This document shows positions 39,320 through 62,884 of a stretch of 64,000 bases of DNA, one piece after another (within the stretch, counting starts at the first letter, position 1; each line of letters opens with the position of its first letter). Made by a program: the position numbers and the translations under genes. The stretch comes from a virus, in the IMG/VR virus record IMGVR_UViG_3300009157_000021, positions 1 through 64,000 of that record; one strand, written 5' to 3'. The notes under the pieces are model-generated. The model was given only the letters and a program-made list of their open reading frames with translations. It ran no database searches and had not been told where the DNA came from.

Positions 39320-39790
39320 TTATCGTGAATGACGCCTCCCACCTTCCTGATAGGGACTGCTCTTGGACAACCGGCCGAGCTTTATCAGGATCTCGGCTAC
39401 CTTATCGACCACTGATTCCAGCTCCTCGTCCTCCTGGTCCATATTGAGATGAGCGATGACCGGGTAATCACGATGCCATTGGTTAATTGCCGTATCGAGC
39501 GCCACAAGCATACCACCTAGGTCGCGACCGCCCATCGCGGCCGTAACCTCACGAAGCCTCTTCCTGTAGTCCTCGATGATCATCTTATCTTCACGGCGGG
39601 TCTTAACGGGCCCCTTATCGTACCAGTGGAGGTAGTCGACGTAATACTCCTGCATCATGTGCAGGGCCGTGAACACGTCCTCAGGACTTGGATCGATGTC
39701 CCGCTCAACGTCGTGGTAAACTCTATATAGAGCGTTGACGCCGGCCGCATCCTCATTGACGTGCAGAAGCTTACCAAGCAGTTCGTTCAT
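39320..39790 (-). CDS. Hypothetical protein with predicted capsid-targeting leader
   Basis: 156 residues. The first 13 residues MNELLGKLLHVNE match the leader of other proteins in the head region ([LFV]-rich amphipathic helix ending in VNE). The mature part is helical and charged (VFTALHMMQEYYVDYLHWYD, EDYRKRLREVTAAMGGRDLG, DKVAEILIKLGRLSKSS). Possibly packaged in the capsid, or a neck/tail-assembly helper whose N-terminus is similar by chance. Confidence 0.6.
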   Translation of the reverse strand: MNELLGKLLHVNEDAAGVNALYRVYHDVERDIDPSPEDVFTALHMMQEYYVDYLHWYDKGPVKTRREDKMIIEDYRKRLREVTAAMGGRDLGGMLVALDTAINQWHRDYPVIAHLNMDQEDEELESVVDKVAEILIKLGRLSKSSPYQEGGRRHSR

Positions 39791-39791
39791 G

Positions 39792-40745
39792 TCAACTCAC
39801 CTTGTACAGAGACCCGTCCGCCGTATTGCTGCTGAGAGCACCGGTAAGACCAAGGACGGTCTTACCACCAACCAACGCGACGGAGTTCACCACGTAGGAT
39901 TCATCGTTGTTAGTAGAGCCCTGGATCCGAACCCGATCACCGACCGAGAAGTCGGAGTGCCTATCGTTTGGCACCACGAGGCTGTTGGTCACAAGATCGA
40001 GTGAATCGATGGCGTACAGGTTACCGGTCGACAGCAGCAACTGTGCGGCAAGCGCCGTGTCCTGGTCAGAATCGGGTACAATGATCTCGGAGTAATTGGT
40101 AACCGAATCCTTGTCGTAGAACGTCAGTCGGATCTTCGTGATCGTCCTGACCTGGTAACCGTCGAGCACCCACGCATCGAGCTTGATCGGCATCCGCCAA
40201 ACGTGCATCACACCCTGATCGAACTCCTGCGGGGTGGTAGACTCATCCTCGATCTGGCCGAAGTGAAGCTCCGGCGAGTAACTGAACGACCGGGTATCGT
40301 CGAACGTGTAGGTCAGGTCGATCTTCGGGTAGTCCTGCTGCCAAAAGATGTACCGCTCAACGCACTGGTAGATTTTGTCGAGGTCCTTGCTCCAGAACCA
40401 CGCGTTGTACACGGTATCAATCGGCTGTGCCTTGACGTTGATTGCGTGCAACCGACCGGCGTCGGTATTCGTAAGCCAGACACCGCGGCGGGCCAGTGGC
40501 GTCCTTTGACGGTCCCAGGCCGGGTTTGTCGCGACACGCCAGAAGCTGATGAACTCAAGGAAGTCCTCACCGCGTTTCTCGGCGATCTTACGGAGCGCCG
40601 TCTCCCGCGGGGATTGAATGACGCTGCGATCGATCTTCGTGGCTTGGTCATCGTCGCCATCGTTCATGCCAAGCAGGTCACCAAATCGGGTGAACAGCAA
40701 CACCTTCAGTGTATCATCAACGTACTTCGTGACGCTTGTGCTCAT
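39792..40745 (-). CDS. Neck/tail-completion structural protein (unassigned)
   Basis: 317 residues. N-terminal helical TKYVDDTLKVLLFTRFGDLL, then ETALRKIAEKRGEDFLEFIS and FWRVATNPAWDRQRTPLARR, with a beta-rich C-terminus (FSVGDRVRIQGSTNNDESYV, VNSVALVGGKTVLGLTGALS). By location between neck-size genes and the sheath it may be a tail terminator or sheath stabiliser (T4 gp3/gp15 role), but no family signature is evident. Confidence 0.6.
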   Translation of the reverse strand: MSTSVTKYVDDTLKVLLFTRFGDLLGMNDGDDDQATKIDRSVIQSPRETALRKIAEKRGEDFLEFISFWRVATNPAWDRQRTPLARRGVWLTNTDAGRLHAINVKAQPIDTVYNAWFWSKDLDKIYQCVERYIFWQQDYPKIDLTYTFDDTRSFSYSPELHFGQIEDESTTPQEFDQGVMHVWRMPIKLDAWVLDGYQVRTITKIRLTFYDKDSVTNYSEIIVPDSDQDTALAAQLLLSTGNLYAIDSLDLVTNSLVVPNDRHSDFSVGDRVRIQGSTNNDESYVVNSVALVGGKTVLGLTGALSSNTADGSLYKVS

Positions 40746-40930
40746 GGCTGAATCAACATCATGAACGTCTCGAACACGTCATCCTTGTATTCCTGCGTCA
40801 GATCCTCCATGTGATGCTCCATCCACTCCTGAACGAAGCCCTCGATCTCGACGCCCCTCTGGGCCTTATAATCATCAGCCATCCTGTTGGCCACCAGATG
40901 AATACCGGCCTTACGAAAGTTGATATCAGC
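40742..40930 (-). CDS. Small acidic hypothetical protein
   Basis: 62 residues from GTG 40930, which lies in the coupled junction GGTGGCTGA and has GGAGAT upstream. ADINFRKAGIHLVANRMADD, then EGFVQEWMEHHMEDLTQEYK. Helical. Ends with ATGA overlap with 39792. Likely a virion-assembly accessory. Confidence 0.6.
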   Translation of the reverse strand, partial: ADINFRKAGIHLVANRMADDYKAQRGVEIEGFVQEWMEHHMEDLTQEYKDDVFETFMMLIQP

Positions 40931-41108
40931 CACCGGTGATCTCCGAAAGATCCTGAATGACGGTGATCTCACGCCGCAGTTCTTCGATGTTGCGGACCTC
41001 GCTGAGATTCATGGCCTTGTGGCCGGGCTTCAACACCCGTTGCGTACCGTCGGCGTGCTCAATGGTAACATCGTGATCCGACGTGTTCTCAATTCTCGTT
41101 ACTCTCAT
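40926..41108 (-). CDS. Small hypothetical protein
   Basis: 60 residues from ATG 41108 (ATGA overlap). RVTRIENTSDHDVTIEHADG, TQRVLKPGHKAMNLSEVRNI: a small beta-barrel-like domain. No family recognised. Flanked by neck-region genes. Confidence 0.6.
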   Translation of the reverse strand: MRVTRIENTSDHDVTIEHADGTQRVLKPGHKAMNLSEVRNIEELRREITVIQDLSEITGG

Positions 41109-41593
41109 GTTTTCTTGACTCTCCTCGGAACGATTGACCAACCCTGTACCAGAATCGCGTCGTGCATGCCCTTCACAGCCGGGTTCACGACCTCGAACGC
41201 CTCACTACCAACGTAGTCGTTCGGAATGAACTCGGGGCTGACCGTGAAGTAGCTACGACGGATTACATCAATGGCAACCTCCGTGCCGATTTCTGAACCT
41301 TCTCTTGCCGTCGCGACGTTCGGAAACCATGCAACGATTGGCAGCATATCCTCGGTGTACAGACCAAGCTGCTTCAACCGATAGACACTGACACCCCACT
41401 CGATGAACACAGAGGCGTCGTACAACGAATAGGAAAGATCACCTGGTACGGCGAATACGTCCTTCCTTTCTGATGTGGAGTATGACGCATTCGTTGGAAT
41501 GTAAAGCACGCACGAGATTCCATAGTTTTCAAGGGAAACATTTACCTGATGTCGCAACGCGTCGATGGTTTCTCTTGGGATCATTCTTGACAT
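41105..41593 (-). CDS. Head-tail joining candidate
   Basis: 162 residues from ATG 41593, eight bases after GGAG (ATG 41584 overlaps the nuclease stop). ETIDALRHQVNVSLENYGIS, CVLYIPTN, GVSVYRLKQLGLYTEDMLPI, VIRRSYFTVSPEFIPNDYVG. The length and N-terminal helix plus beta pattern suit neck or completion proteins between capsid and sheath genes, but this is positional inference. Confidence 0.6.
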   Translation of the reverse strand: MSRMIPRETIDALRHQVNVSLENYGISCVLYIPTNASYSTSERKDVFAVPGDLSYSLYDASVFIEWGVSVYRLKQLGLYTEDMLPIVAWFPNVATAREGSEIGTEVAIDVIRRSYFTVSPEFIPNDYVGSEAFEVVNPAVKGMHDAILVQGWSIVPRRVKKT

Positions 41594-42075
41594 AAGCCGT
41601 TCTCCTTCGCATATTTAACGACCGATTCAAGAAGATCCTCGACAATGCCAAACCCAAGATTACACTTGTGACATAGCAAACCGCGAACCAGACCGGCCCT
41701 ATGGTCGTGATCGACCGACAGCTCAAACGTGGTACCGGTCCTACCATCAATTCTTGTCTCCGGTTTCCCACAGATGGCACAGACACCACCCTGTATCCGC
41801 AGCATCTCGTCGTACTGCTTCCTAGTGATACCATACCGACGCACCAAATCGTTCGCCCTAATTCGCCCTCGTACCCTGATGTTGTACGACTTCTTGTACT
41901 GCCCGATTTGCACCGACCTACTCGCGACGTAATCCTTCCTGCAGTCTTTACAATCCGGTACGAAACCGGTCTTATACCGCTTGTTATGGTAGAAGAAGTC
42001 CGGTGATAATGGTAGAAAGCGACCGCACTTGCCACTACATTTCTGCATCGGAATTTCGGCGGCCAATTGCGTCAT
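41581..42075 (-). CDS. Recombination endonuclease VII-like nuclease
   Basis: 164 residues. N-terminal zinc knuckle (CSGKCGRFLPLSPDFF, CKDC), then the endonuclease VII core: QGGVCAICGKPE, LSVDHDHRAGLVRGLLCHKC, NLGFGIVEDL. T4 gp49 of this family resolves Holliday junctions and debranches DNA before packaging. Small family members also behave as homing nucleases. Its insertion between two structural genes with overlap at its stop resembles the HNH elements, so either role is possible. The start codon is uncertain because AAAGG is only two bases from ATG 42075. Confidence 0.85.
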   Translation of the reverse strand: MTQLAAEIPMQKCSGKCGRFLPLSPDFFYHNKRYKTGFVPDCKDCRKDYVASRSVQIGQYKKSYNIRVRGRIRANDLVRRYGITRKQYDEMLRIQGGVCAICGKPETRIDGRTGTTFELSVDHDHRAGLVRGLLCHKCNLGFGIVEDLLESVVKYAKENGLCQE

Positions 42076-42112: not shown

Positions 42113-42490
42113 TCAACCCGGCACCAGGTACTCCATTATGATCTCAGCTTCCTGAATCTGACCGTCCTTGGTCGCTACAATGCTGACACTCTGCGGAGCA
42201 TACCGATGACCGGCGACCCACGAGACAGACGCATCGGACAAATGCATCTGAATGGTAATTGGTGCCTTCTCGCCAGCGATCTGGAACTCGATCTCGGTGT
42301 TGCCAAACAGCATCAGATCAACGTCCTTCACGCCCCAATCGCGGCTCTCGAAGTTCAACTCGTACTCGATTACCACGTCGCTGACGCTCTCGATCTCAAC
42401 GCCCTCCACATGCAGATCAACATCCACCTTGGCCCGGTAATGCTTGTCGGACTCGTTTACCGCACGCAGCCTATTGAGTAGGTCTTCCAT
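42113..42490 (-). CDS. Hypothetical protein with predicted capsid-targeting leader
   Basis: 125 residues from ATG 42490 (GTG 42493 possible). Leader MEDLLNRLRAVNE fits the [LF]-rich helix ending in VNE shared by head-region proteins. The mature part is all beta: HYRAKVDVDLHVEGVEIESV, VIEYELNFESRDWGVKDVDL, APITIQMHLSDASVSWVAG. Possibly an internal head protein. Function unknown. Confidence 0.6.
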   Translation of the reverse strand: MEDLLNRLRAVNESDKHYRAKVDVDLHVEGVEIESVSDVVIEYELNFESRDWGVKDVDLMLFGNTEIEFQIAGEKAPITIQMHLSDASVSWVAGHRYAPQSVSIVATKDGQIQEAEIIMEYLVPG

Positions 42491-42719
42491 CACTCTTGCC
42501 CACTTTCTTTAGGTCGATCACCCATTGCAGGACGATCAAAACCAGTGCCAATCCAGCGATCGTTGCCACCTTTGGCCAAGATACTTCTTTCATGTCCGCA
42601 ATGAAGTACATGGCAGCGATTCCAACTCCCATCTTCTTGCTTGATAGGTTACTGATACCGGACGCGAGCTCGTTCATCGCACCCTTTACCTGGCCCTGAT
42701 TACTAGTGACCTCGGCCAT
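42471..42719 (-). CDS. Small membrane protein
   Basis: 82 residues starting in a TAATG overlap. A hydrophobic helix near residues 50-70 (VATIAGLALVLIVLQWVIDL), with a second weaker one before it (GVGIAAMYFIADM), and a basic Lys-rich end. One to two membrane passes; could be holin-like, but placed among structural genes. No family recognised. Confidence 0.6.
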   Translation of the reverse strand: MAEVTSNQGQVKGAMNELASGISNLSSKKMGVGIAAMYFIADMKEVSWPKVATIAGLALVLIVLQWVIDLKKVGKSDGRPTQ

Positions 42720-45154
42720 TACTTACGTCCCTGTTGCTGGCGCTTCTTGATCTGCTCGGCGTACGCTTCGAGCTCGTCGTCGCCAAAAGCATCAACGGCC
42801 TTGGCTGCAGCCGACGTCAACGCCTCACGCTTCTTCCTCTCCTCATCCGTGTACGGCTTCTGTCCGGGCATCATCTTTTCGGGGAACTGCTCATTCACCT
42901 TCGATTCACCGACCGCGGCCAGTGCCTTGACCGGTGCAACGTACTTGAGCCATGCCATACGGAGGTTCATATCGGAACCGAGCTTCTCAGGGTCGACCAT
43001 ATCCTCCTGCTGGCTCAGATCGTCGATCATCTCTTCCTCGGACGGCCACTCGTTTGACATCTGACCGTCCTCGATGGCGGCCATGATGGCGTCCTTCTCG
43101 TCCTGCGGAATCTCCTCCATACTGTTAAGCAGAGCGACGATGCCCTCGGTCAGCTTCTCGATCTTCTTGTCCTCAGGGTCGGCATCGTCGGGCACCTTAC
43201 CCTCACCGACGATGGTAACACCGTGATCCTTGAGCTTGTTCGCCACTATTTGATTGAAATCATTCCACAGATCGACGGTTCGCGTGTGGATGGCCTCCAT
43301 CCTCATATCGCCGGTCCCCCCATCCGGAAGATCCGCGGCGATGATTTGTGCGTATTCCTCGGCCAGTTGGTCAATGGTGGAAGACGGCGACACCGACTCG
43401 TTCTCCGGGATTGTTACATCTCGGCCGAGAATTTGAGACCGATAAAGGCGGGGACGACCGGCCCTATGACGTTCGAACTCCTTTTGCATTCGTTTCTTAT
43501 CTAACTCACCGGTAATCTGATACTCCCACTTACCGCATTTACAGTGAGCCATACCGTCGTGACCAGAATCGACTATCAAATCATGCTCAACCTCGGACTC
43601 GTCGCGGGCACCGGACTCCATCTTACGGAGCTTCTTATAGTACTCGGGATCCTCGGTCAAGTGATCCATAGCAATCTGCTTAGCTTTCTCCCGATCATTG
43701 GTGTGCTCCATTTCCACCTTGGTACCGATTTCGACCTGATCGGCATCGAAATCACCCGGTGTCTTTCCGGCCTTCGCGGCCAGACCCTGATTCTTAACAG
43801 CATCGTCGTATGAAACGTCGGGCCCGTTTACGGGTCTATCAACCCGATAGTTATCCTCGTTTGCCTTAGCCTCACCGACCTTAACGGCCTTCGTCGCTTT
43901 GGCACCACGCTTCATCCGTTCAACCGAGCGCCTGGCATCATCCTCATCGAATGCAGCCACTCTAGTGCTGTTCTTCTGACCGTCCTGTGTGTATTCCACT
44001 TTAAAGATTGGCTTATCCAATCCAACCATGTTGGAATATTCACCCTCGGACAGGTTCTCGGTCCTCTCGTTACCGCACTTACACTTGGCCTCGTTACTGC
44101 GGAACGTCTTGTTACAGGAAGGACAGAACCGCAGACTCTCGCGGATTCGGTAGCCGCGGGGCTTCTGCACCGGCGTCTTTGATTCCTTGGTCTTGGGCGA
44201 TTTGCTCGTCTTCGGGGCGTTTGCCTCCGGTTTCGACTCACCGCTGGTGCCACGCCATTTATTGCACCGGGTGCACCAATAACCGGCCTTGCCGGTTTCC
44301 TCATCCTCAGCGTAGAACGCGTGTTGGGACCCACAGGAACATTCATGCTTGGTCTGGATGTTTGCCTCGTTGACCTTCGATTCCTTGGTCTCGGGCGGCT
44401 TCTGTTCTAGCTCCTTGTCCTGGACCTCACGGGTCTTGAGCTCGTCGTTCTCCTTCGTCTTGTCCTTGAGCTTGTTCGGATCCTCGGTCTCGCTGTAGTC
44501 CTCCATGCTGTTCTTCGCGGCATCAACATCCGGCGTCTCCTGCGGCGGCATCGTACCGGGAACGTCGCACTCAGCAACCTTCGACTCATCCGTATCACGC
44601 TGGCCACCGGCGAACTCGTCAACGAGCAGGTTGTACATGTCCTCCTCGGTGGACTCCTTCTCCGGACCTCGTGCGATTGGACCGGGTGAGAAATCGGATG
44701 TACTCAGAACGGAATACAGGTTGCTATCCTGGCCACCGTGGTAGTTATTGGCGAACCAGTACATGGCGGCCTCGGCGTCACCTTCGAAACCCTCCTCGGT
44801 CCCAAGTTGACCACGAAGGAACTCCAACATCTCTTCCCGAGTGGGGTCCTGAACGTTCTCGTTCATCTTTTTCATGAACGCCTTCGGGTCGGTGAAGTAT
44901 TCGGTGACGGCCTCCTTGATCCACGACCGATTTGGCACGCCGACGATCCGGTTGTCCTCGATCTTTCGCGGCCAGGTCACGAAGGTCTGGCTGTTCGTGT
45001 TCCGATAGAGGATCTTCGGACCCATTGCGGTCTCGACGATGCGGAAGGTGTTCGGCTTGACGGCGGTGCTCCAGCGCTCCTTCCAGTCCTTGACCGGCTG
45101 CGACCCGGCACCGACATCAATCTTCTTCACGCTCTCGAACAAGTCCATATTCAT
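42719..45154 (-). CDS. Large modular protein with zinc knuckles (possible internal head protein)
   Basis: 811 residues from ATG 45154 (GGGGGAT upstream, inside the HNH gene end). N-terminal domain with KDWKERWSTAVKPNTFRIVE and WPRKIEDNRIVGVPNRSWIK. Acidic linkers alternate with small Cys modules: CSCGSQHAFYAEDEETGKAG...CTRC, FCPSCNKTFRSNEAKCKCG and HCKCGKWEYQITGEL. A QDGQKNSTRVAAFDEDDARR segment may be another small module. Recurrent tags ESKVNE, DESKVAE, GEAKANE, GEGKVPDDADPEDKKIEKLTE mark module borders and recur in the protein at 54184. They end like gp21-type cleavage sites. The role is not known. Confidence 0.7.
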   Translation of the reverse strand: MNMDLFESVKKIDVGAGSQPVKDWKERWSTAVKPNTFRIVETAMGPKILYRNTNSQTFVTWPRKIEDNRIVGVPNRSWIKEAVTEYFTDPKAFMKKMNENVQDPTREEMLEFLRGQLGTEEGFEGDAEAAMYWFANNYHGGQDSNLYSVLSTSDFSPGPIARGPEKESTEEDMYNLLVDEFAGGQRDTDESKVAECDVPGTMPPQETPDVDAAKNSMEDYSETEDPNKLKDKTKENDELKTREVQDKELEQKPPETKESKVNEANIQTKHECSCGSQHAFYAEDEETGKAGYWCTRCNKWRGTSGESKPEANAPKTSKSPKTKESKTPVQKPRGYRIRESLRFCPSCNKTFRSNEAKCKCGNERTENLSEGEYSNMVGLDKPIFKVEYTQDGQKNSTRVAAFDEDDARRSVERMKRGAKATKAVKVGEAKANEDNYRVDRPVNGPDVSYDDAVKNQGLAAKAGKTPGDFDADQVEIGTKVEMEHTNDREKAKQIAMDHLTEDPEYYKKLRKMESGARDESEVEHDLIVDSGHDGMAHCKCGKWEYQITGELDKKRMQKEFERHRAGRPRLYRSQILGRDVTIPENESVSPSSTIDQLAEEYAQIIAADLPDGGTGDMRMEAIHTRTVDLWNDFNQIVANKLKDHGVTIVGEGKVPDDADPEDKKIEKLTEGIVALLNSMEEIPQDEKDAIMAAIEDGQMSNEWPSEEEMIDDLSQQEDMVDPEKLGSDMNLRMAWLKYVAPVKALAAVGESKVNEQFPEKMMPGQKPYTDEERKKREALTSAAAKAVDAFGDDELEAYAEQIKKRQQQGRK
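43141..43212 (-). repeat. Dispersed coding repeat: GEGKVPDDADPEDKKIEKL
   Basis: Third copy, in the 42719 protein, more than 11 kb from the others. It shows that separate large proteins share linker DNA. Confidence 0.75.
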
Positions 45155-45158
45155 CTGA

Positions 45159-45770
45159 TTATCCCCCGACCATTTCTCCGCAATTGCAGTTGAAACATAG
45201 AACCCGAAATCCGTTCGGGAAACCGTTGTCACGAAGCCAACGGTAGAAACTTGACCCGGCCTTCCTGCCGATCGACCTGAGATGCCTTCTTCCGCCACCG
45301 TTCACGTGATCGATGGTAAGAACATCGATGTTAGTCTCACCACAGAATTGACACTGGCCACCATATTGATTGATGACGAGACGCTTCACACGGGCGTTAC
45401 ACAACCTCGAAACCTCCGCCTTCCCGCCGATCAATGAGAATGACCGTTCGTTCACGTATTTCAAGCGGTTGTGATTCCAACACAACACCTGGAACCCGCC
45501 CGGGAAGTCATTCTGAATAAGCCAATTATAAAAGTTAACACCGACGCCGGTTACCTTCCGATGTTCATTTCCACTACCACCAATGTGATCGATAGTCAGA
45601 AGGTTATGGTCATCAATACCACAGACGGCACACCCACCGCCGTAATGGGAAAGAACAGCCAACTTAATCCTGACTCGGTACGCCTTTCCACTCTTGGCCA
45701 TTTCAGCCGAATGAAGCCGATAATACCCAGCCTTCTGTTCTGATCTGTTCATGACGACGGTGTTACTCAT
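45159..45770 (-). CDS. Tandem two-domain HNH endonuclease
   Basis: 203 residues from ATG 45770, six bases after GAGG. Two HNH cores in series: YGGGCAVCGIDDHNLLTIDH then YNWLIQNDFPGGFQVLCWNH, and YGGQCQFCGETNIDVLTIDH then YRWLRDNGFPNGFRVLCFNC. In the first copy the last Cys pair is degenerate (CWNHN), so the second is more likely the active one. It probably arose by duplication or by fusion of two elements. Inserted between an overlapped pair of genes. Confidence 0.85.
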   Translation of the reverse strand: MSNTVVMNRSEQKAGYYRLHSAEMAKSGKAYRVRIKLAVLSHYGGGCAVCGIDDHNLLTIDHIGGSGNEHRKVTGVGVNFYNWLIQNDFPGGFQVLCWNHNRLKYVNERSFSLIGGKAEVSRLCNARVKRLVINQYGGQCQFCGETNIDVLTIDHVNGGGRRHLRSIGRKAGSSFYRWLRDNGFPNGFRVLCFNCNCGEMVGG

Positions 45771-46209
45771 CATTTTCCTCAACCGTGTCGGCGACCTCGA
45801 CCTTGTCGCCCTTGATGTCGGTCCAGTTACCCTGCTTGCCGGTGGCGTCCCAGTCGACCAGGTCACGAACTCGATCGGAGACATGACCATCACGAGACCA
45901 CGACGCGACGATTCGCTTCTCGTCCTTCTCGGCCATCGGCTTGAACCCATCCGGCAGATCGGAGAATCGAATGTTCAGCATCTTATGAATGGACGCCGCC
46001 GAGTTGTCGCCGGAGAAAACATGCCGGAGAATCGCCTGTGCATGCCTGTCCTTCGGCAGGATGGCCGTGTTCTTCTTGGCCAGGGTATTAAACAGATTGC
46101 CAACCCCGGTCATCGGAACGTTCGTATCGTACTCACCGAGCATCGCCAGCATTCTACGGAATAGCTGGAGATCCTTGGCCTCAAGCAATCTCTTCGCTCT
46201 GCTTCTCAT
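45763..46209 (-). CDS. Hypothetical protein
   Basis: 148 residues. Basic helical N-terminus (MRSRAKRLLEAKDLQLFRRM) followed by LAMLGEYDTNVPMTGVGNLF, RHAQAILRHVFSGDNSAASI and an acidic end (VEVADTVEENDE). Overlaps the repeat-domain gene before it by 29 bases. Perhaps a head or neck accessory. No family recognised. Confidence 0.6.
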   Translation of the reverse strand: MRSRAKRLLEAKDLQLFRRMLAMLGEYDTNVPMTGVGNLFNTLAKKNTAILPKDRHAQAILRHVFSGDNSAASIHKMLNIRFSDLPDGFKPMAEKDEKRIVASWSRDGHVSDRVRDLVDWDATGKQGNWTDIKGDKVEVADTVEENDE

Positions 46210-47416
46210 GTTCTGGCTCCTGCGAATCCGACATCATGGACTTCAACTGATCGAAAAAGTCCGGGTGAAACTTACCACCCACCGGGTAAATGACGTTCTT
46301 CTTCCTCTTTATAAAGCGACCGAACTCTTCCTCGATTCTGTCAACGAGCTCGTCATCACCAACGTACATCGACTGAGTCGGGTCATAGATGAAATCGACC
46401 TTGGCTTCGAATACCAAATCGATACCCTGGAAGGTGACCTCAACCCGAGTACCGTACAAGTAATCATACTTACTCATACCAGCAAACTGACCAAGGGGCC
46501 GACCCTCCTGCATAGCGGCTATCACCATTTCGAGACTGCCGCGGTCATCACCGTGTTCCCGCAGAATATCACCATAAAGCTTCTGGGCGTCCTTCTGCTG
46601 CCGCTCGACCTTAATAGCGACCCGCTGCGTTCGCGGACGGCCCTCACCGAACGTTGATTGGAAAGAGCGAACCGCGTCTGCGGTGACCTGGAACTCATCT
46701 CGATTCATGAGCTTTACCATCTGCTGCTTGAGTTCCTTACGCAGACGGCTCAGATCCTCCTCAACGGCCTCCTTCACCCCGATCACCGGCGTCCTCTTTT
46801 TTCTCCTACGACCACGACCACGACCACGACCGATTTCAGTCGGCAATGCCGCGATATCGTTCTCGGTAGTCATTCCATCAGCAGCCGGTGCCGGACCACC
46901 GGATGGTGCTGCACCATCCTCCTTCAACTTCTTCTCCTCGATATTTCCGTACCTGATGATGTAGTCAATATGTTCCGGGGACTTGATTAGCCCAAAATGG
47001 GATTTTTCATCCTCCCCCCAGCTATTGCTAATCATACGCTTCATATTCAGTTTGGTCGCAATTTTCGTTATCTGTTCTATCTGGGTATAGTTTGGCATCA
47101 CGTTCCACTGGATTGCCAACTCACCATTATCATCGTTCGCATAACCACGAACCGCACCAGAGTCCATTAAATCACCATGGTTAGTACCGGCCAACCTAGC
47201 GGTCCAGCCATGATCATATTCCACCCAGATGACGGTGCCATCGGTTAGAACCCAGAACTTATAATATTCCTCACCGCCGTAGTTGGATCTGATCATCGAC
47301 ATCGATTGGCCGTATTTATTGATCATCTTCTGTTCATGCCCGGCCAACGTAGCGACTTCCTCGTTTACCGGGCGGATCCTATCGGTCAATCTAGTCGCGA
47401 GATCGTAAAAGTTCAC
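46181..47416 (-). CDS. Repeat-domain protein with leader (one copy), predicted internal head protein
   Basis: 411 residues from GTG 47416 (GTGA overlap). Leader MNFYDLATRLTDRIRPVNE ends in VNE. Then one copy of the shared ~130-residue domain: MINKYGQSMSMIRSN, FWVLTDGTVIWVEYDH, LMDSGAVRGYANDDNGELAI, YTQIEQITKIATKLNMK, IDYIIRYGN. Next a probable cleavage tag KKLKE, a Gly/Ala/Pro linker, an Arg-rich tract GRGRGRGRRRKKRTP and a coiled segment. The C-terminal part has MSKYDYLYGTRVEVTFQGID. Paralogous in part to 47413 and 60914. No known domain recognised. Confidence 0.72.
   Translation of the reverse strand: MNFYDLATRLTDRIRPVNEEVATLAGHEQKMINKYGQSMSMIRSNYGGEEYYKFWVLTDGTVIWVEYDHGWTARLAGTNHGDLMDSGAVRGYANDDNGELAIQWNVMPNYTQIEQITKIATKLNMKRMISNSWGEDEKSHFGLIKSPEHIDYIIRYGNIEEKKLKEDGAAPSGGPAPAADGMTTENDIAALPTEIGRGRGRGRRRKKRTPVIGVKEAVEEDLSRLRKELKQQMVKLMNRDEFQVTADAVRSFQSTFGEGRPRTQRVAIKVERQQKDAQKLYGDILREHGDDRGSLEMVIAAMQEGRPLGQFAGMSKYDYLYGTRVEVTFQGIDLVFEAKVDFIYDPTQSMYVGDDELVDRIEEEFGRFIKRKKNVIYPVGGKFHPDFFDQLKSMMSDSQEPEHEKQSEEIA
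46808..46832 (-). repeat. Six-base tandem repeat encoding Gly-Arg run
   Basis: About four copies of CGACCA/TGGTCG in a coding region translate to GRGRGRG in the protein 46181. Such tracts can expand and contract; here they make a basic, AT-hook-like or RGG-like stretch. Confidence 0.7.
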
Positions 47417-54183: not shown

Positions 54184-57100
54184 TTATTGACCCATGCCCA
54201 GCAGACCCTTAAGCAGGTCGATGCCACTTGTGACCTTCCGCTCCGGCAGCCTCTTGGACTCTTTCACCTTGGCGGCCTTCTTACCCTTCTGACCCTTCTT
54301 GAACATATTCTTCTTGAAGGCGTCGGGCAGCTTCTTCTTGGCTTCGCCAACGTCCGCACCCATATTACCGGACTCCCTATCCAGATCCTCCAGCTCCCTG
54401 ATCTCGTCCTCAAGATTAGCGTCTATTTCATCAGCAGTCAGGTCGCCATCCTTAATCAACTGACTTCTAACCGAGTGGATATAACTCTTCAGCGCCCTCC
54501 TTACCACGTTCTTCGCGTCGTCCTCGGACAGACCGAATCTCTTATCCAGTTCGTCAATGATATCATCGGTAGGAACCTGTTCCGATATTCCATTTAAGGC
54601 GACTTCGAATGCATCGTCCTCTTTGGCCTCGTTCTTCTGCTTGTTCACGGTCGCATGGGCAACCTGCTCGGCCTTCTTCGCGGGCTTGCCAGCGGCCTTT
54701 TCACTCTTCTCGATATGCTTCACCTGACGCTTCTCCTTCTTCGTGCAGGCAGCGCCCTTCTCATTGACCTTGGACTCATCAGCATGGGCTCGTGCCAGAC
54801 GATCTTCCTCGCGGGAGTCGTAGTCCTGATCTGACTTGCGATCACGGGCGGCACGTTCCTCGTCCCGGTCCCGATCCCAGTCGTCTCGTTTGTCACCGGC
54901 GGCGACCAACTGAGCGTATTCATCCTCTTCCATGTTGCTCAGGGCGTCGAGCGCCAGCTCCTGCAAACCGTCGGAGGTCAGATCACCGGTGGCCTCGTCC
55001 CGCCACATGGCGGCGAAGTCCTTCTCGAACCGATATTCCTGACCGTTGATGTCGATGACCACGTCATCCGAGCCATCATCAACCTGGGCGACCTCGAACG
55101 TGTCGTCACCCATCTGAACCTTGGTCTCGATCAGCTTATTGATCTTCGTGTCCTCGGGATCGGCGTCGTCCGGGATCTTTGCCTCGTCCGTCTTACCGAC
55201 GCCAAGCTTCGCGGCGAGATCCTTCACGAGTTGGTCATCCAACCCACCATAGAACTCGTTGTCGAGCGGATCAAGCTGCTCGGCGTTGTGCTCGAACTCC
55301 TCCTCGGACTGATTCTTAATGTTACGATCGGTCACAGCCATCCCATAGAAATCGGACCGCATGGCTTCCTCGGCGAGAGCGGCCATCTTCTCGGCGGCCT
55401 CGGTGCCGATCTTGTGCAGCATGCGAATCGCGAGATGACCCTCTTCCTCGGCGATGCCGTTGTCGATCCACTGTTCGAAGCCACCGTTCCAGACCTCGGC
55501 CATCAGCGTGACCACGGCCTCCCACTTGGAGTCCTTGTCCTCAATGGCCTTCAAGATCCCGTCCCACAGCGCTTCGTCGTGGGTCTCCTTGAGCATCACG
55601 ACCTTGCGGGCGGAACAGCGCTCCGCGATCTTCTTCGATCCGGTCTTGGACTTTCTCTCGAACGGACGCCGCTCTTCCTCCTCACCGGTCGGCAGGGCCT
55701 CGTCGGGCTTACCGGCAGCGGTATCAGCATCCTCGGTCGGCTCCTCGTCGGCGATCTCCTCGGGTTCGGTCTCCTCGTCCTCCCTCGTCAGTTCTGGCAG
55801 GATGTACTTGACGAGCACCGATCTGGTAATCTCGTCGATCTCCAGTTCCTGAATCGCCTGAATGAGGAAATCAGCCGGATTGCTCGGATCGATTTCCTGC
55901 TCACTCGCGGACCAGAGCTTCTTACCTTCCTGGTCGACGATCTGCAGATCCTCGGGCGTATCAGCGCCCTCTTCCTCGGTCGGCGTGCTGCTCGGCGTAC
56001 CAACCATGTAAAAGTGGGTCTCTTCCTTCTTGCCGATGTACTCCTTGGTGATCGTATCCTTCTGCTGCTCCTCACCCTCGGCGGGTGCCGGATTCGCGGG
56101 ATCCCTGGGACGATCGATGTCGGGACCTTCCTCGTCGGGCTTCACGTCGTCACCGATCTTATCCTCGGGATCACGACCGTCCTCGGTCAGCTTGTGTTCA
56201 CCGATAATCTCGGGTGCGATCAACGCAACGTCGCGGTCAATATATCGCTTGAGATCATCGGCAATTTTGTTATCGGGGCCGTCAACCACCACGCTCCACT
56301 TAGCACCGGAGACTTCAACCCGAACGGTGTACTCCTTCTTATCCGCAATGATGACGAATTCATTGGGGCCCTTACCCATAGACACCGATGTCTCACCACC
56401 AAGCAATTCATCAATCGGGTCCGGGGTCATCCTGTACATTTTATACAGGTTAACGACAATCGAGTTAGCGGGATCAAAATCCTCGGTCAACTTCGCAATC
56501 TTCTTGTCCTCGGGGTCGGCGTCATCCGGGACCTTACCCTCATCCGCGGTCCGACCCTTAAGAAGACCATCGGCGTGAATCCTAGCCTCCTTCTCATTGT
56601 CGTAAACAGCCTCAATATCCGCCGCATTCAAACCACCGTGAGCCTGCATTGCCAACTGTGCCGGCGTAGCCTCAAAACAAATATCATCGATCGTGGATTC
56701 CTTAGTCGGGGTAGTCACGACCCAAAAGCTCTTAATGACCCCCTCCCTAATCTTCTTGAGCAGATTAAGTACGCCGGTAACGGTCTTTGATTCAATCGGA
56801 CTTGCCAGCCCATGATCCGCGGTCTCTTTATTAATCCGCTGCTTAGCTGTAGCCAAAACCCTTGCAGCCTCCTTCTCATCCAGCTCCCAGTCGGCGGCCA
56901 GGGTCTTAACAATCTCCTCATCCGGACGGCTCTTGCGAAGCAACTCGGTAACGTGGATTTCCATCTCATCCTGACGATTATCAAAGGCATCGGAAGCATC
57001 CTGCTCAAGACCCTCCTTCACCGGCTCATTCACGATCTCATAGCCATCCTTACGGGTAGCCTCCCAGATGGAATGCGGCTGGATCCTCGTAAGCTTTTGC

Positions 57101-57234
57101 ATGGCACCATCCTGTGTCTGGGCCCGTTCGACGATCCTGCCATTGTGTTTGATGACCCACGGATTGTCCTTCGGATCAAGACCCGCAAGACGATCCCTAT
57201 TATCCATCATGTAGTTAATGAAATCGTTATTCAT
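54184..57234 (-). CDS. Large acidic modular protein with processing-like linkers (possible prohead core protein)
   Basis: 1016 residues. N-terminal NPWVIKHNGRIVERAQTQDG is DUF5678-like. Several small domains follow (VVNLYKMYRMTPDPIDELLG, KKIAERCSARKVVMLKETHD, ALWDGILKAIEDKDSKWEAV, FEVAQVDDGSDDVVIDINGQ), divided by acidic low-complexity linkers. Linkers repeatedly contain DEGKVPDDADPEDKKIAKLTE-type or ESKVNE, GEHKLTE, ESKRLPE tags, which end in [IVL]xE like gp21 sites. The C-terminus is Lys-rich (KKNMFKKGQKGKKAAKVKES). In T4 the core holds internal and scaffold proteins; a comparable role is plausible. No enzymatic motif seen. Confidence 0.72.
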   Translation of the reverse strand: MNNDFINYMMDNRDRLAGLDPKDNPWVIKHNGRIVERAQTQDGAMQKLTRIQPHSIWEATRKDGYEIVNEPVKEGLEQDASDAFDNRQDEMEIHVTELLRKSRPDEEIVKTLAADWELDEKEAARVLATAKQRINKETADHGLASPIESKTVTGVLNLLKKIREGVIKSFWVVTTPTKESTIDDICFEATPAQLAMQAHGGLNAADIEAVYDNEKEARIHADGLLKGRTADEGKVPDDADPEDKKIAKLTEDFDPANSIVVNLYKMYRMTPDPIDELLGGETSVSMGKGPNEFVIIADKKEYTVRVEVSGAKWSVVVDGPDNKIADDLKRYIDRDVALIAPEIIGEHKLTEDGRDPEDKIGDDVKPDEEGPDIDRPRDPANPAPAEGEEQQKDTITKEYIGKKEETHFYMVGTPSSTPTEEEGADTPEDLQIVDQEGKKLWSASEQEIDPSNPADFLIQAIQELEIDEITRSVLVKYILPELTREDEETEPEEIADEEPTEDADTAAGKPDEALPTGEEEERRPFERKSKTGSKKIAERCSARKVVMLKETHDEALWDGILKAIEDKDSKWEAVVTLMAEVWNGGFEQWIDNGIAEEEGHLAIRMLHKIGTEAAEKMAALAEEAMRSDFYGMAVTDRNIKNQSEEEFEHNAEQLDPLDNEFYGGLDDQLVKDLAAKLGVGKTDEAKIPDDADPEDTKINKLIETKVQMGDDTFEVAQVDDGSDDVVIDINGQEYRFEKDFAAMWRDEATGDLTSDGLQELALDALSNMEEDEYAQLVAAGDKRDDWDRDRDEERAARDRKSDQDYDSREEDRLARAHADESKVNEKGAACTKKEKRQVKHIEKSEKAAGKPAKKAEQVAHATVNKQKNEAKEDDAFEVALNGISEQVPTDDIIDELDKRFGLSEDDAKNVVRRALKSYIHSVRSQLIKDGDLTADEIDANLEDEIRELEDLDRESGNMGADVGEAKKKLPDAFKKNMFKKGQKGKKAAKVKESKRLPERKVTSGIDLLKGLLGMGQ
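55126..55190 (-). repeat. Dispersed coding repeat: DEAKIPDDADPEDTKINKL
   Basis: One of three near-identical ~65-70 base segments (others at 56484-56555 and 43141-43212) that encode the linker DE[AG]K[IV]PDDADPED[TK]KI. They sit at module borders of the proteins 54184 and 42719 and may have spread by recombination or duplication. Confidence 0.75.
56484..56555 (-). repeat. Dispersed coding repeat: DEGKVPDDADPEDKKIAKL
   Basis: Second copy in the 54184 protein. It is followed by TEDFD and a new domain. A reduced version GEHKLTEDGRDPEDKIGDD lies near 56150-56205. Confidence 0.75.
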
Positions 57235-58351: not shown

Positions 58352-58900
58352 TTACGACACCATCGCGGGGGTGTCGAGCCCACCGACCTGTGCACCAATG
58401 TTGTTCACGGCGGTCAAAATCGCGTCGGCCTTGCCGTCCACCGCGGTGACCTTGCCATCGACCGTGGTCACCTTGCCGTCAACGCCCACGACCGCGACAC
58501 CAACCGCGGTCACGTTCGAGTTGACGCCATCAACCTTCCCGTCGACCGTGGTCACCTTACCATCGACGGTGCCGACGGCGGTGTTGACACCATCAACGGC
58601 GGTACCCACCGTATTGAGGTTGTGATTGCCGACGGAGTAGCGCTTGATGACCTTGCCGTTGCCATCGGCCTTGTGCACGATGACGAGCCACTCACCGGTG
58701 ACGTTCGGCGTGAACTGGCCCTTGTAGGTGCCGGTGTTCAAAACCTCACCCATCGCCACGTCCGGGAAGTTCTCCGTATTCTTGACGCCGGTCGGCAGGA
58801 AAATCTCGGCGATCACTCCAGCCAGACCACTCTCCGCATTCGGTGCCTGATAAACGATCGGCAACGCATCACCGACTTTGAACTGTGCCTCACCAGCCAT
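58352..58900 (-). CDS. Beta-domain protein with VDGKV repeat stalk
   Basis: 182 residues. The N-terminal 90 residues form a beta domain (SGLAGVIAEIFLPTGVKNTE, TGTYKGQFTPNVTGEWLVIV). From about 95 come repeated units T[VA]DGKV[TD] (VGTVDGKVTTVDGKVDGVNS, VDGKVTTVDGKVTAVDGKAD), a heptad-like pattern that likely trimerises into a fibre or spike stalk. Probably a virion surface or internal fibre; the partner is unknown. Confidence 0.7.
   Translation of the reverse strand: MAGEAQFKVGDALPIVYQAPNAESGLAGVIAEIFLPTGVKNTENFPDVAMGEVLNTGTYKGQFTPNVTGEWLVIVHKADGNGKVIKRYSVGNHNLNTVGTAVDGVNTAVGTVDGKVTTVDGKVDGVNSNVTAVGVAVVGVDGKVTTVDGKVTAVDGKADAILTAVNNIGAQVGGLDTPAMVS
58430..58620 (-). repeat. Tandem degenerate repeats encoding VDGKV units
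   Basis: About eight imperfect 21-24 base units coding for V-D-G-K-V-T-T/A or V-D-G-V-N. Bases at third positions differ, so selection is likely acting on the protein repeat. Confidence 0.75.
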
Positions 58901-59144: not shown

Positions 59145-59525
59145 TTACAAGGAGTAGATCCTATTACCCATCTTTTCAAAGATGACCGGGACGAGAATGC
59201 CGTATTCGCGGCGACCCTGTTTCATCTCGATCAGAACGTGAGTGAGCAGGCTGGACAGACCCATCATTGCAACGATCGAATCGTCCGCAGCCTTACCCTC
59301 TCTGATGGCCTTGAGCGTCTTCTCAACGCTCTTGCCCTTGAGTTTCTCTATCAACTTGTCGAGTAGCCGCTCCGCGGTGGGCAGCTTCTTCAATTCGGTC
59401 AACGTAGCATCGGCCAGACCGGCGGACCAGTGCTTCTTGGCTGCCTCACAAACCGTCTTGTATTCGGGACCGGTGAAGTATCGCTCGGCCGCAGCCAGCA
59501 AACGGAGAACTTCGTCGTGTATCAC
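59145..59525 (-). CDS. Helical hypothetical protein
   Basis: 126 residues, ATGA-coupled to the protease gene before it. HDEVLRLLAAAERYFTGPEY, KTVCEAAKKHWSAGLADATL, AERLLDKLIEKLKGKSVEKT, ending VPVIFEKMGNRIYSL. Could be a regulator or partner of the HtrA-like protease, given the coupling. No family recognised. Confidence 0.65.
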   Translation of the reverse strand: MIHDEVLRLLAAAERYFTGPEYKTVCEAAKKHWSAGLADATLTELKKLPTAERLLDKLIEKLKGKSVEKTLKAIREGKAADDSIVAMMGLSSLLTHVLIEMKQGRREYGILVPVIFEKMGNRIYSL

Positions 59526-60295
59526 TGGTTCACCTGCTCAATCAAACCGGGGAGAACCTCGATGATCCGATCTACGCCGACCACGAACCCAATACCGGAG
59601 TTTAAATACGCAGCAAACGCCATTCCGATCACCCGGCCGGAGCGATCAAACACCGGACACCCAGAGTTGCCGGGATTGATGGAAGCATCAACCTGAATCG
59701 TACCAAATTGCGGGTCGAACTCGTACATTCTACTGATAATACCGGCGGAAACCGACCACGACAAACCGTACGGGCACCCGATAGCCCACGCGGCATCGCC
59801 GACCTTCAAACCGCCAGGGGTCACAAAGTCAACTACAAACGGAGTATCGGCATCAACCTTCACTACAGCAAGCTCCGAGCTCGGATCACCAGCCCACGAA
59901 ACGATCAATGATACCACCCCATCATTGAATTTAACGACCGCGGACACCCCGGGGTCATCAAGCTTCGTGACGATGTGCTTCGCGGTAAGAATGACCCCGT
60001 CACCAACTATCATACCGGTACCGCCGTACGACACTGGCTTTCCGGTCCTCAGGTCTATTGTGTTATTCTCCGTAACGGTGATGTTCACCACGCTCTTGCA
60101 CGCCACGGTAAGCATGCCCGTGGGTGGCATGACGTAGCTGGCCAGACCGCAAAAGTTGGCACCAAGCATCGAATCGTACGCGTCGTTTTGTGCTACCCGG
60201 TTCTGCAGATCATAAACCACATTGCCAAGGTAAGCGGAGTTCAGTGCCATTACGGCGAACAGCACACCAATCAGGATTCTTGTTACCTTACTCAT
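59522..60295 (-). CDS. Membrane-anchored HtrA/DegP-like serine protease
   Basis: 257 residues from ATG 60295. One N-terminal membrane helix (VTRILIGVLFAVMALNSAYL). Trypsin-like domain: GGTGMIVGDGVILTAKHIVT (His107), GDPSSELAVVKV where DegP has Asp (here Glu141), and DASINPGNSGCPVFDRSG (Ser211; Cys instead of the second Gly). No PDZ domain. DegP cleaves misfolded envelope proteins. A phage copy might cut host envelope or incoming proteins, or its own. The Asp-to-Glu change could lower activity. Starts in an ATGA overlap with the ATA-start gene. Confidence 0.85.
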   Translation of the reverse strand: MSKVTRILIGVLFAVMALNSAYLGNVVYDLQNRVAQNDAYDSMLGANFCGLASYVMPPTGMLTVACKSVVNITVTENNTIDLRTGKPVSYGGTGMIVGDGVILTAKHIVTKLDDPGVSAVVKFNDGVVSLIVSWAGDPSSELAVVKVDADTPFVVDFVTPGGLKVGDAAWAIGCPYGLSWSVSAGIISRMYEFDPQFGTIQVDASINPGNSGCPVFDRSGRVIGMAFAAYLNSGIGFVVGVDRIIEVLPGLIEQVNQ

Positions 60296-60489
60296 TTCGT
60301 TCCCGCCCTTCGATTGACCGACGTATGTGTGGGCTCCTTGCCGGGAACACGACATCCTTCGATTTCATCAATGTTGTAATAGGTCTTGCCACCATCCCGC
60401 GAGAAGCAGGCTGGCGACCGGGCCGAGGCAGCGAGTCGCTCTTGGATTGATTTGCGTCTTTGCAAGTTGTCGAGGAGATCATCAAATAT
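60292..60489 (-). CDS. Short leader-bearing protein, apparent ATA start
   Basis: 65 residues if ATA 60489 initiates. No ATG, GTG or TTG precedes the conserved start region; an in-frame TTG lies later at 60465. GGAAAAGG lies five bases before the ATA, and the next gene starts in an ATGA overlap with this stop. The N-terminus IFDDLLDNLQRRKSIQE aligns with the leader of the 60914 protein (MFDELFDRLRQRITE), placing ATA exactly where Met sits there. The rest reads RLAASARSPACFSRDGGKTY, then NIDEIEGCRVPGKEPTHT. A strong hairpin lies upstream. Too short to show up as a normal start-to-stop gene. Confidence 0.62.
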   Translation of the reverse strand: MFDDLLDNLQRRKSIQERLAASARSPACFSRDGGKTYYNIDEIEGCRVPGKEPTHTSVNRRAGTK

Positions 60490-60500: not shown

Positions 60501-60538
60501 CCGGGGTGGGCCGGTTTCAACGCACCGGCCCCACCCGG
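60501..60538 (-). other. Strong GC-rich hairpin before the ATA-start gene
   Basis: CCGGGTGGGGCCGGT and ACCGGCCCACCCCGG pair almost completely around an eight-base loop. It follows a tiny gene and is followed directly by GGAAAAGG, not by T's, so it may control translation or RNA processing, or be a weak terminator. Confidence 0.7.
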
Positions 60539-60557
60539 ATGCACGAACGACGGACCC

Positions 60558-60674: not shown

Positions 60675-60721
60675 GACTTGCTCCTTACTCGACCAGTCGA
60701 TAAAATGGAACACTTCACCCA

Positions 60722-60728
60722 CATAAAA
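60722..60728 (-). promoter_or_regulatory. Gap motif TTTTATG with TGGGTGAAG
   Basis: In the 63-base gap between two tiny genes the - strand reads CTCTTTTTATGTGGGTGAAG, then CATTTTATCG. See the similar site at 39297. Candidate late promoter. Confidence 0.3.
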
Positions 60729-60737
60729 AGAGACGGC

Positions 60738-60899
60738 TCAGGATTTATCGATCCGGCCTTTTCTGCTCTGTTCTATGAGTTCCGTGTCGAGTTCATCCAC
60801 GAAATCGAGGATGCCCTCCTTGTCCGGGTCATCCGGTGCCGCCTTTGTGTAAAGACGACCGAGCATTGCCTTTAGTTCACGAATTGCTCTCTCATTCAT
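60738..60899 (-). CDS. 53-residue acidic helical protein
   Basis: ATG 60899 after GAGGG. NERAIRELKAMLGRLYTKAA, PDDPDKEGILDFVDELDTEL, then IEQSRKGRIDKS. Helical. Follows the large repeat-domain gene with a 14-base gap. Unknown, but well supported by ribosome site and spacing. Confidence 0.65.
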   Translation of the reverse strand: MNERAIRELKAMLGRLYTKAAPDDPDKEGILDFVDELDTELIEQSRKGRIDKS

Positions 60900-60913
60900 A
60901 TTCCCTCGACTAT

Positions 60914-62884
60914 CTAGGGATTTGTTTCATTCGCCGAGACCTCTGACTCGACCGGTTCACCAATCAGATCGTTACTGGTCAAGAACGAACGGAGCGAGTT
61001 GAGATCACGACCGGTGTCCGTGTGGTGATCACCGAACCCATCGTAATCCCAATAGAATTCCTCGCCGTTTCTTGATACACTTGCTATGGTCCTAAACTGG
61101 GCCTCGGTCGGCGGAATGTTGATCTCGACGCTCATTGACCCGTTGACGGCCGTGTACCACCTAATGTAACTGGTCTCCTTGATGAACTGCTTGTACTTCT
61201 CGCGGGTGGATGGAGGCTTGTCCGGGTCCATCTTTCCGTTGTCTATCAACCATCGAATGGCGTATACCGGGTGCTGCATCGACGGTTCCTCAAATGTCAA
61301 CAGGCTACCATCGGGTCGGATGAACCCGGCCTCACCCGGAGCAACGGCCTCACGAATCGATTCGGCCATTGCCATTTCCTCGCCGTAGCGAAGAACGGCC
61401 TCCAGTCTCTCGGCCGAGTCGATGCCCGCACCCTTCCTGTTGTTGGCGTACAACCTGCTGGCACCGTATTTCTTGTACAACCGGACGGCGGCGTCGATCT
61501 GCTCGTCGGTGATCTTATCGTCCCAGTACAGGTCCATCTCACCCCTGTTTGGAGCAAACTTGCCCTCGACGGCACCGGTGTCGTAGAAAGCCACTTGTGT
61601 GGCGGCGTGCTTGGGGTTGTGATAGTGGTCCTCATCCTCGGAGAACAGAGGACCGGGAACGAGGTTCCTACCAACGATCGTTCCGCGATGCGACTTCTCG
61701 ACCGGGATCACGCTGCCGTCATTCAGAATCAGGAACTTGAGCCAGTGCTCCTCACCGGACCACGTGCTTGGTGCCAAATCGAGACTGGGCCTGACCCGTT
61801 GCTTCAATTCGGCCTGTACCGGCGGGAGGCTTTCGCAGATTCGTTTGTGAGATCGGCGCTCGCTCATCGCCATCTCTTTGCCGTAACGAAGAATCGCATC
61901 GAGCCTCTCAATCGAGTCGATACGGCTTTCGACGAAATCACCGTCAACGTCAACGTACACGTTATCGCACTCGTACTCCCTGAACAGCTTCTTGAGCTTC
62001 GCGATCTGGGGCTCGGTCAGCTTACCGGCCGAGTTCCCAATGAGAATTGCTTCGTCGGGGATGATGGATAGACGGAACGCACCGCTGGTCATCATCTCCT
62101 CGAACGCGATGGCGGGCAGATTCAGGTCCTCGGCCTCTTCATCGTCCTCTGCTTCGAGCTTGAGGATCTCTGCGGGGACATCCGCATGAACGTAGTCAAC
62201 TGGTATAACCGACCCGTCATTGAGCACCCACCCCTTGCAGCGGTTCTCCTCACCCTCGAAGTTGTTGTACGCGAGATCGTCACTGACCTTGAACGTGTCC
62301 TTTACCTTTTGCTGCAGATCGGGCAGGCTGGCGCTCTTCTCTTTCAGGTGCAGCAGGTGGTCGTGCAGATCCATCTGAAAGCCCTCTGCCGTCGCGTGCT
62401 GCAGCATTTCAGGCCCGTACTCAAGGACCGCGGCGACCCGGTCGATGCTGATTTCCGCACCGTTAACGCGGTCACCGTCTGCATCGAGCGTCAGGTAACG
62501 ACAACGGTGTTCCTTCCACAGACGCAAAACTGTTCGAATCTGGGCGGGCTTTAGCTTGTTCTCATACCACAGGTCCATTTCGCGTGATTGAACGTCGATC
62601 TTGCCCTGGATACCACCGGTGTCCATGAATTCATTAACCAAGAAACCATCGTTTGGCTCCATCGGACCTTTGTGACCGGATATTGTATCCATGTGACTAT
62701 TATCAACCGTGATTACCGTGCCATCAAGCAGCACCAGGAACTTGTACCATTCTTCCTCACCGGACCAGGTGCTCGCAACCAAACCAGTAGACTCGCCATA
62801 CTTATCCTTGATGGCCTGGTGAACCGGGGGCAGGGCGGCCTCGGTGATGCGTTGACGCAGACGATCGAACAATTCATCAAACAT
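60914..62884 (-). CDS. Repeat-domain protein with leader (four copies), predicted internal head polyprotein
   Basis: 656 residues from ATG 62884 (GAGAGG upstream). Leader MFDELFDRLRQRITE. Copies of the shared ~130-residue domain at about 22-165, 188-343, 355-508 and, diverged, 519-640. Repeating features: an ALPPVHQAIKDKYG-type start, SGEEEWYKFLVLLDGTVITV, a [DS]-rich loop, TGGIQGKIDVQSREMDLWYE, LKPAQIRTVLRLWKEH, then SIDRVAAVLEYG. The module ahead of copy 3 repeats the leader style (SHKRICE before SLPPVQ), as does AESIRE before copy 4, suggesting a polyprotein cut after [IV]xE. Not matched to any known domain. Confidence 0.76.
   Translation of the reverse strand: MFDELFDRLRQRITEAALPPVHQAIKDKYGESTGLVASTWSGEEEWYKFLVLLDGTVITVDNSHMDTISGHKGPMEPNDGFLVNEFMDTGGIQGKIDVQSREMDLWYENKLKPAQIRTVLRLWKEHRCRYLTLDADGDRVNGAEISIDRVAAVLEYGPEMLQHATAEGFQMDLHDHLLHLKEKSASLPDLQQKVKDTFKVSDDLAYNNFEGEENRCKGWVLNDGSVIPVDYVHADVPAEILKLEAEDDEEAEDLNLPAIAFEEMMTSGAFRLSIIPDEAILIGNSAGKLTEPQIAKLKKLFREYECDNVYVDVDGDFVESRIDSIERLDAILRYGKEMAMSERRSHKRICESLPPVQAELKQRVRPSLDLAPSTWSGEEHWLKFLILNDGSVIPVEKSHRGTIVGRNLVPGPLFSEDEDHYHNPKHAATQVAFYDTGAVEGKFAPNRGEMDLYWDDKITDEQIDAAVRLYKKYGASRLYANNRKGAGIDSAERLEAVLRYGEEMAMAESIREAVAPGEAGFIRPDGSLLTFEEPSMQHPVYAIRWLIDNGKMDPDKPPSTREKYKQFIKETSYIRWYTAVNGSMSVEINIPPTEAQFRTIASVSRNGEEFYWDYDGFGDHHTDTGRDLNSLRSFLTSNDLIGEPVESEVSANETNP

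Follow-up and report, generated by a model that had tools for sequence, protein, structure and literature searches.

The question raised by this locus is what a set of short N-terminal leaders is doing on proteins that otherwise differ widely. The stretch analysed, hereafter the window, comprises 64 kb out of a 68.3-kb virus record (IMGVR_UViG_3300009157_000021) from a T4-like phage, with its head genes on the minus strand: a protease-scaffold fusion, a gp23-like capsid protein and a tail sheath. The initial annotation had read the leaders, which end in [IV]xE, as capsid-targeting sequences cut by the gp21-like protease. In phage T4, the internal proteins carry capsid targeting sequences (CTS) of 10-19 residues, which are removed by gp21 (PMC9026906). 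Our comparison indicates that the locus probably serves to load the head with cargo as in T4, and that this cargo includes modular polyproteins, which the prohead protease would cut. These polyproteins, which had not been seen in the initial annotation, are the step beyond the T4 precedent.

All seven leader peptides listed at the outset were located on the minus strand of the window (Table 1), and six of them start good open reading frames (ORFs) at ATG or GTG. The seventh, IFDDLLDNLQRRKSIQE, was rejected as a gene, as no in-frame ATG, GTG or TTG and no homolog in four relatives were found; it is located at 60439-60489 and not at 60292, the site it had been assigned. More generally, the numbers given for the leaders mark where the ORFs end (3', the low coordinate) and not where they start. 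Two leaders were added to the set, that of p148 and MNELLDRLLE/AGR (a slash marks the predicted cut), which opens a 456-amino-acid (aa) GNAT protein starting at 64672, beyond the window. The window leaders are 10-19 residues long and stand in front of variable mature parts.

Relatives were collected, for which ordinary searches had yielded little. The window capsid protein shares no more than 29.4% identity with cultured-phage capsids (nearest: Listeria LIS04, Streptococcus GXN1 and Bacillus SP-15), and p658 and the 1016-aa protein had no match in known or cultured phages. One IMG/VR contig (G002/L001) encodes a capsid protein 80% identical to that of the window; its leaders are conserved and its long proteins consist of blocks separated by ESKVNE-like peptides. 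DNA scans with [DN]ESKVNE and two variants yielded G001 (45 kb), G009 (103 kb), G010 (84 kb) and the fragments G007 and G008, and no relative was found among bacterial and archaeal genome contigs. The relatives have a gene order in common (protease, capsid, neck protein, p588, p411, p148, polyprotein, with the sheath further down), the G001 capsid protein being the most distant of the group (33-39% identical). Single-motif matches in L074, L087, L233 and L236 were rejected as chance matches in unrelated proteins. ESKVNE was also rejected as a signal of all gp21-bearing phages: the peptide does not recur in the protease loci that are more distant.

Six ortholog families (protease, p588, p411, p148, p126 and p156) were compared with twelve control families, including neck, portal, sheath, tubes, hub and baseplate. 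The [ILV]xE motif with its Glu (P1) at residues 7-25 was present in 25/26 orthologs versus 5/44 controls (Fisher p=5e-13). When the window phage was removed, 19/20 orthologs and 4/33 controls had the motif (Fisher p=1.3e-9). These figures bear on the simplest objection, namely that [ILV]xE is common near the N-terminus of Glu- and Leu-rich proteins and that the matching ones were picked. The motif is indeed no more than mildly enriched at this end of the protein when every ORF of the more distant loci with a protease is counted; however, a prediction derived from the window held in orthologs of other phages, and the internal linkers described below are far above shuffles, which makes chance a very improbable explanation.

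At the cut site, the Glu and the P3 residue are kept while the remaining leader diverges. The p126 sites are RAVNE/S, RAVNE/S and RTLNE/H (RAVNE/ in G002, RTLNE/ in G001), and those of p588 are LIE/AT, INE/AT, IHE/AT and LDE/MS; in the window p588, VEE/AT is internal because a second leader and a shared domain have been placed in front. The p148 sites are LLE/AKDL, ILE/AKDL, LFE/AKNL and LNE/ARDL, so that [IL]xE/A(K/R)(D/N)L is N-terminal in four of five phages, and G010 has IFE/AKDM within a longer chain. In that phage (L258 9259-10281), p148 forms a fusion in which a rubrerythrin/ferritin-like domain precedes it. Furthermore, the amphipathic moment of the leaders was 0.52 versus 0.31 for other N-termini, and Ser or Ala directly followed the Glu in 22/37 leaders versus 19% at other [ILV]xE sites. 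As part of the 37 leaders were chosen by eye, some selection enters these last two tests; the ortholog test is independent of them.

The window protease matched the Pfam S77 profile (PF03420) above its cut-off of 27 bits, as did those of relatives (28.3 and 32.4 bits); a broad genome search for S77 had given no match, and it was the direct scan of the window protease that did. The motifs EHP and STRA are invariant in four phages, the ATG start at 54171 is preceded by a TAAGGAG Shine-Dalgarno sequence, and the gene is directly upstream of the gp23-like capsid gene, an order kept in G001, G002, G009 and G010. For the leader regarded as possible on the protease, relatives have comparable sites at the same place (Table 1). 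The capsid propeptide itself ends with LFE/ or LSE/ in 5/5 phages. Judging from these conserved sites, the protease would cut after [IL]xE. With regard to the capsid gene, it is interrupted by an insert in G001 (20396-22675, L096) and appears in two pieces in G010, a split that resembles Bacillus phage SP-15, in which the insert is annotated as a putative endonuclease.

The window also encodes a trypsin-like protease (PF13365) with a hydrophobic N-terminus at 59522-60295, with a homolog in G010. Its presence nearby and in that relative lends some weight to an alternative in which the leaders act as docking tags for head or portal and the linkers as flexible hinges, [ILV]xE being either an uncut part of a helix or a site for another protease such as this one. 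Against it, trypsin-like enzymes prefer basic P1 residues. Moreover, the Glu and P3 residues are retained among diverging leader residues, a site of this kind also terminates the capsid propeptide, and a small residue following the Glu is a feature of a site, not of a helix. We therefore regard this alternative as improbable.

The leaders are short and amphipathic, they have a conserved [ILV]xE end in front of variable mature parts, and they occur in genomes encoding a gp21/S77 protease and a matching gp23 propeptide site. For these reasons the capsid-targeting reading initially proposed is maintained in part: comparison supports the view that the leaders behave as T4-type capsid-targeting propeptides, as far as sequence can indicate.

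The long proteins were then considered. The 859-aa and 1016-aa proteins contain internal linkers, unlisted in the initial annotation, of which the strict form was encountered 30 times in eight long proteins versus 0.07 expected from shuffles, and a looser form 65 times versus 4.8 (five sets of predicted proteins). Codons vary among copies of an identical linker peptide, so that simple DNA repetition does not account for them. At cassette boundaries defined by BLAST, linkers were found in 14 of 50 cases, versus 5.4 at random (p=0.0004). The comparison showed that leaders and linkers of the E-[SA]-[KR]-[VIL]-N-E type are conserved signals at domain boundaries in phages with a gp21-like protease.

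The sharpest boundary was observed between G001 and G007, which are 99.4% identical up to MTES[KI]NE, the identity ending within the first codon past the Glu. Different cassettes follow, occupying the next 1.05 kb in G001 or 0.42 kb in G007, and similarity returns shortly past another linker (ESTLNE or ESINE). As read from this alignment, two nearly identical phages have swapped cassettes at a linker. In addition, the same domains were found alone or within chains. The p156 domain, a single leader gene in the window, closes the G009 p588 chain as its final cassette, after WKNRLKE/. DUF5662 is a leader protein in G009 (MMFDRLLKRLTE/) and a cassette of the G002 p588 after NERITE/, and the middle domain of the window GNAT protein is a cassette in G009, after ESINE/. 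This suggests an exchange between phages in which pieces of head cargo act as interchangeable cassettes. The cassette domains include GNAT, rubrerythrin-like, DUF5661, DUF5662, pentapeptide and RyR domains, most domains being of unassigned function. A pentapeptide-repeat protein of G009 (L257 9708-11081), whose leader ends with SLTE/S, may be a DNA mimic carried as cargo. Within the cargo block of the window, two ORFs (41581-42075 and 45159-45950) are HNH or endonuclease VII-like and may help to move cassettes; such a role has been suggested by Sullivan et al. for an endonuclease beside T4-GC119 in cyanophages (PMC3037559).

The mature parts had been described as mostly unrelated, which does not apply to p658, p588 and p411. 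These share one new domain in six copies, three in p658 (preceded by ITE/, LKE/ and ICE/), two in p588 and one in p411. The p411 leader of G002, MNFHDLMTRIFDSTSRINE/, lacks the domain found next in the window p411. A structure model of the shared domain was obtained with a predicted local distance difference test (pLDDT) score of 86.8; it had no significant match in the PDB (best E 0.02, gelsolin-like) and matched a single unnamed phage protein weakly. The GNAT domain of the 456-aa protein was identified with PF00583 (24.4 bits versus a cut-off of 20.7). The C-terminal fold of that protein was predicted at low confidence (pLDDT 41) and was left unused, the suspicion of an ADP-ribosyltransferase being a guess.

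Multi-domain phage proteins packaged in heads have been described as polyvalent proteins (PMC5512222), and the chains of the window group are multi-domain and shuffled, with most of their domains of unassigned function. The long proteins could be injected as whole chains, any processing taking place in the host by other means. Against this, the linkers agree with the cut site of the capsid type, and separate leader-bearing genes exist for the same domains. Injection of uncut chains seems a poor explanation, to which we give little credence. As to the polyvalent hallmarks (MPTase, ART, primase and others), a Pfam scan of the window-group domains with general profiles, which are not polyvalent-specific, gave GNAT and RyR only.

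The main rival accepts cleavage and differs in its outcome: the proteins would be scaffold or core parts comparable to T4 gp22, gp67 and gp68, whose fragments mostly exit the head without any delivery. Cassettes are indeed also found inside the protease-scaffold fusion and the adjoining 1016-aa protein, and T4 core proteins are cut into several fragments that are mostly removed (PMC9026906). On the other hand, a filler has no need of enzyme or binding domains such as those listed above, and rapid cassette exchange suits a payload better than a scaffold. We consider core filler unlikely, although it deserves to be taken seriously.

Under the preferred interpretation of packaged and processed cargo, the leader helix would carry each protein into the prohead core, and, as the head matures, the protease would cleave behind the Glu. 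Leaders would thereby be shed from single proteins, and polyproteins would be freed as several small proteins within the head. More tentatively, the mature proteins (GNAT, DUF5661, DUF5662, DMP19-like, the CxC...CxH protein and others) might remain with the DNA and enter the host.

Similar arrangements were observed in cultured cyanophages (Kyanoviridae), where the T4-GC119/DUF6321 proteins are encoded between the terminase small subunit and sheath genes. In Prochlorococcus phage Syn1 a standalone protein of 91 residues is encoded, MKSFKQLRIDINE/SAWTRK (DUF6321, T4-GC119), and the same domain ends a longer protein in S-P4, S-RIM2, S-SRM01, B23 and DSL-LC02. GWSDKYK follows VKE/ in DSL-LC02, and its S-SRM01 counterpart GWSEKYK comes directly after the initiator Met. 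DUF5661, seen in the window 859-aa protein, is present in DSL-LC02 and S-SRM01 as well. As in the window group, DUF6321 is thus found alone with a leader (Syn1) or ending multi-cassette DUF5661 proteins (DSL-LC02, S-SRM01); unlike in that group, the cyanophage boundaries have no ESKVNE linker, with VxE/, IxE/, LxE/ or QNE/ instead. Outside the T4 group, Vibrio phage VPs20 (L090 5338-6606) has DUF5661 inside a DUF2213 head protein, which ties this domain to head proteins more widely; a literature search yielded no paper on DUF5661 or DUF5662.

On balance, we lean towards a wider proposal, in which the site of the prohead protease serves as a general boundary between modules in T4-like phages, cultured cyanophages among them. 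Domains would shuttle between leader genes and polyproteins that are packaged whole and then cut, providing a fast-changing multi-protein payload.

Several observations weigh against the cargo interpretation. The strict linker is absent from most cassette boundaries. The residue after the Glu is mostly Glu or Asp in linkers and Ser or Ala in leaders, so that cutting may differ between them. Two cyanophages, S-P4 and S-RIM2, have QNE and not [ILV]xE at the internal site, a weaker fit. One L001 protein has LND in place of LxE; in T4, Asp at the cut position blocks cutting, not targeting (PMC9026906), an effect which may, by analogy, bear on this protein. Some leaders and start codons were picked by eye or by a simple script, and cleavage, packaging and ejection are all deduced from sequence.

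The positions of these features are collected in Table 1. In addition, the protein encoded at 58352-58900 contains a VDGKVTTVDGK-type stretch that recurs and probably forms a fibrous region of repeats.

Table 1. Leaders, linkers, cargo proteins and head genes of the window
Feature	Positions	Strand	Remarks
C-terminal part of the 456-aa protein	63302-64000	minus	phrog_3147-end-like domain, then GNAT acetyltransferase
Leader MFDELFDRLRQRITE/ of p658	62840-62884	minus	ORF 60914-62884, ATG start 62884
Mature part of p658	60914-62839	minus	probably several cassettes itself
Leader-like peptide IFDDLLDNLQRRKSIQE	60439-60489	minus	ATA start only; gene unsupported
1016-aa polyprotein	54184-57234	minus	upstream of protease; DMP19-like domain; linkers ESKVNE, EGKVPDD...KLTE, EAKIPDD...KLIE
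Internal linker DESKVNE/ of the 1016-aa protein	54760-54780	minus	
Leader MLLLERIIGEAKIVE/ of the protease	54127-54171	minus	ILE/, LDE/, IIE/, LNE/ here in relatives
gp21/S77 prohead protease with coiled-coil scaffold-like C-terminal part	52138-54171	minus	PF03420 29.2 bits, phrog_207
gp23-like major capsid protein	50610-52130	minus	PF07068; predicted propeptide end QRLFE/NTTTED near 51906
Leader MFNELVDRVFRIRE/ of p588	49138-49179	minus	GTG start 49179
Mature part of p588	47413-49137	minus	shared domain, VEE/AT core with CxC...CxH motif, ENESRLHE linker, second shared domain
Leader MNFYDLATRLTDRIRPVNE/ of p411	47360-47416	minus	ORF 46181-47416, GTG start 47416
Leader MRSRAKRLLE/ of p148	46180-46209	minus	ORF 45763-46209; then AKDL
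859-aa polyprotein with DUF5661 cassette	42719-45298	minus	start probably 45154 by G002 comparison
Internal linker KESKVNE/ of the 859-aa region	44366-44386	minus	
Internal linker GESKVNE/ of the 859-aa region	42890-42910	minus	DESKVNE/ in G002
Leader MEDLLNRLRAVNE/ of p126	42452-42490	minus	ORF 42113-42490, ATG start 42490
Leader MNELLGKLLHVNE/ of p156	39752-39790	minus	ORF 39320-39790, ATG start 39790
Tail sheath	37630-39264	minus	

If this interpretation is true, many "hypothetical" multi-domain proteins encoded between T4-like head and tail genes, also in cyanophages, would be head cargo cut by the protease. A sequence rule for phage payloads would follow, the residue after the leader or linker Glu being the mature N-terminus; the cargo of uncultured phages would become predictable, and the idea could be tested in cyanophages already in culture. 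Such chains would also offer a natural model for loading several proteins into a capsid as one chain.

The statement that the cargo set matches nothing recognised went too far, as a precedent exists in T4 IPI-III and Alt (PMC9026906). CTS-tagged cargo is already known in T4, as are multi-domain packaged proteins in the form of polyvalent proteins (PMC5512222). For cargo cassettes that are exchangeable and have prohead protease sites between them, no description was found in the open-licence papers searched, which does not prove that none exists. By description, the likeness to IPI-III and Alt extends to propeptides of 10-19 residues before unrelated variable proteins, an [IL]xE-type end and a gp21/S77 protease in the head block (PMC9026906), with the GNAT protein standing where T4 has an effector enzyme such as Alt. 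The window group differs in having more leader proteins, in allowing V at P3 and favouring N at P2, in leader families that are kept even between very distant phages, and in exchangeable-cassette polyproteins with cut-like linkers.

With T4 gp22, gp67 and gp68, the group has in common several gp21-type cuts per chain, here predicted, and acidic coiled-coil core proteins beside the protease gene (PMC9026906); unlike in T4, the pieces are folded domains also found as separate genes, and scaffold and protease form one chain. The inner-body proteins of phiKZ and SPN3US are comparable to the predicted cargo, forming a large internal head set with N-terminal propeptides cut by an S77-type protease and several motifs per propeptide (PMC10052503, PMC9026906). 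However, their motif is S/A-x-E, and the extra motifs are located in the removed propeptides and not between exchangeable domains. Finally, the polyvalent proteins of phages and conjugative elements are a possible parallel, with many mobile domains per packaged chain, including GNAT and other effectors (PMC5512222), but have no described prohead-protease linkers, their release being ascribed to in-chain peptidase domains or left open.

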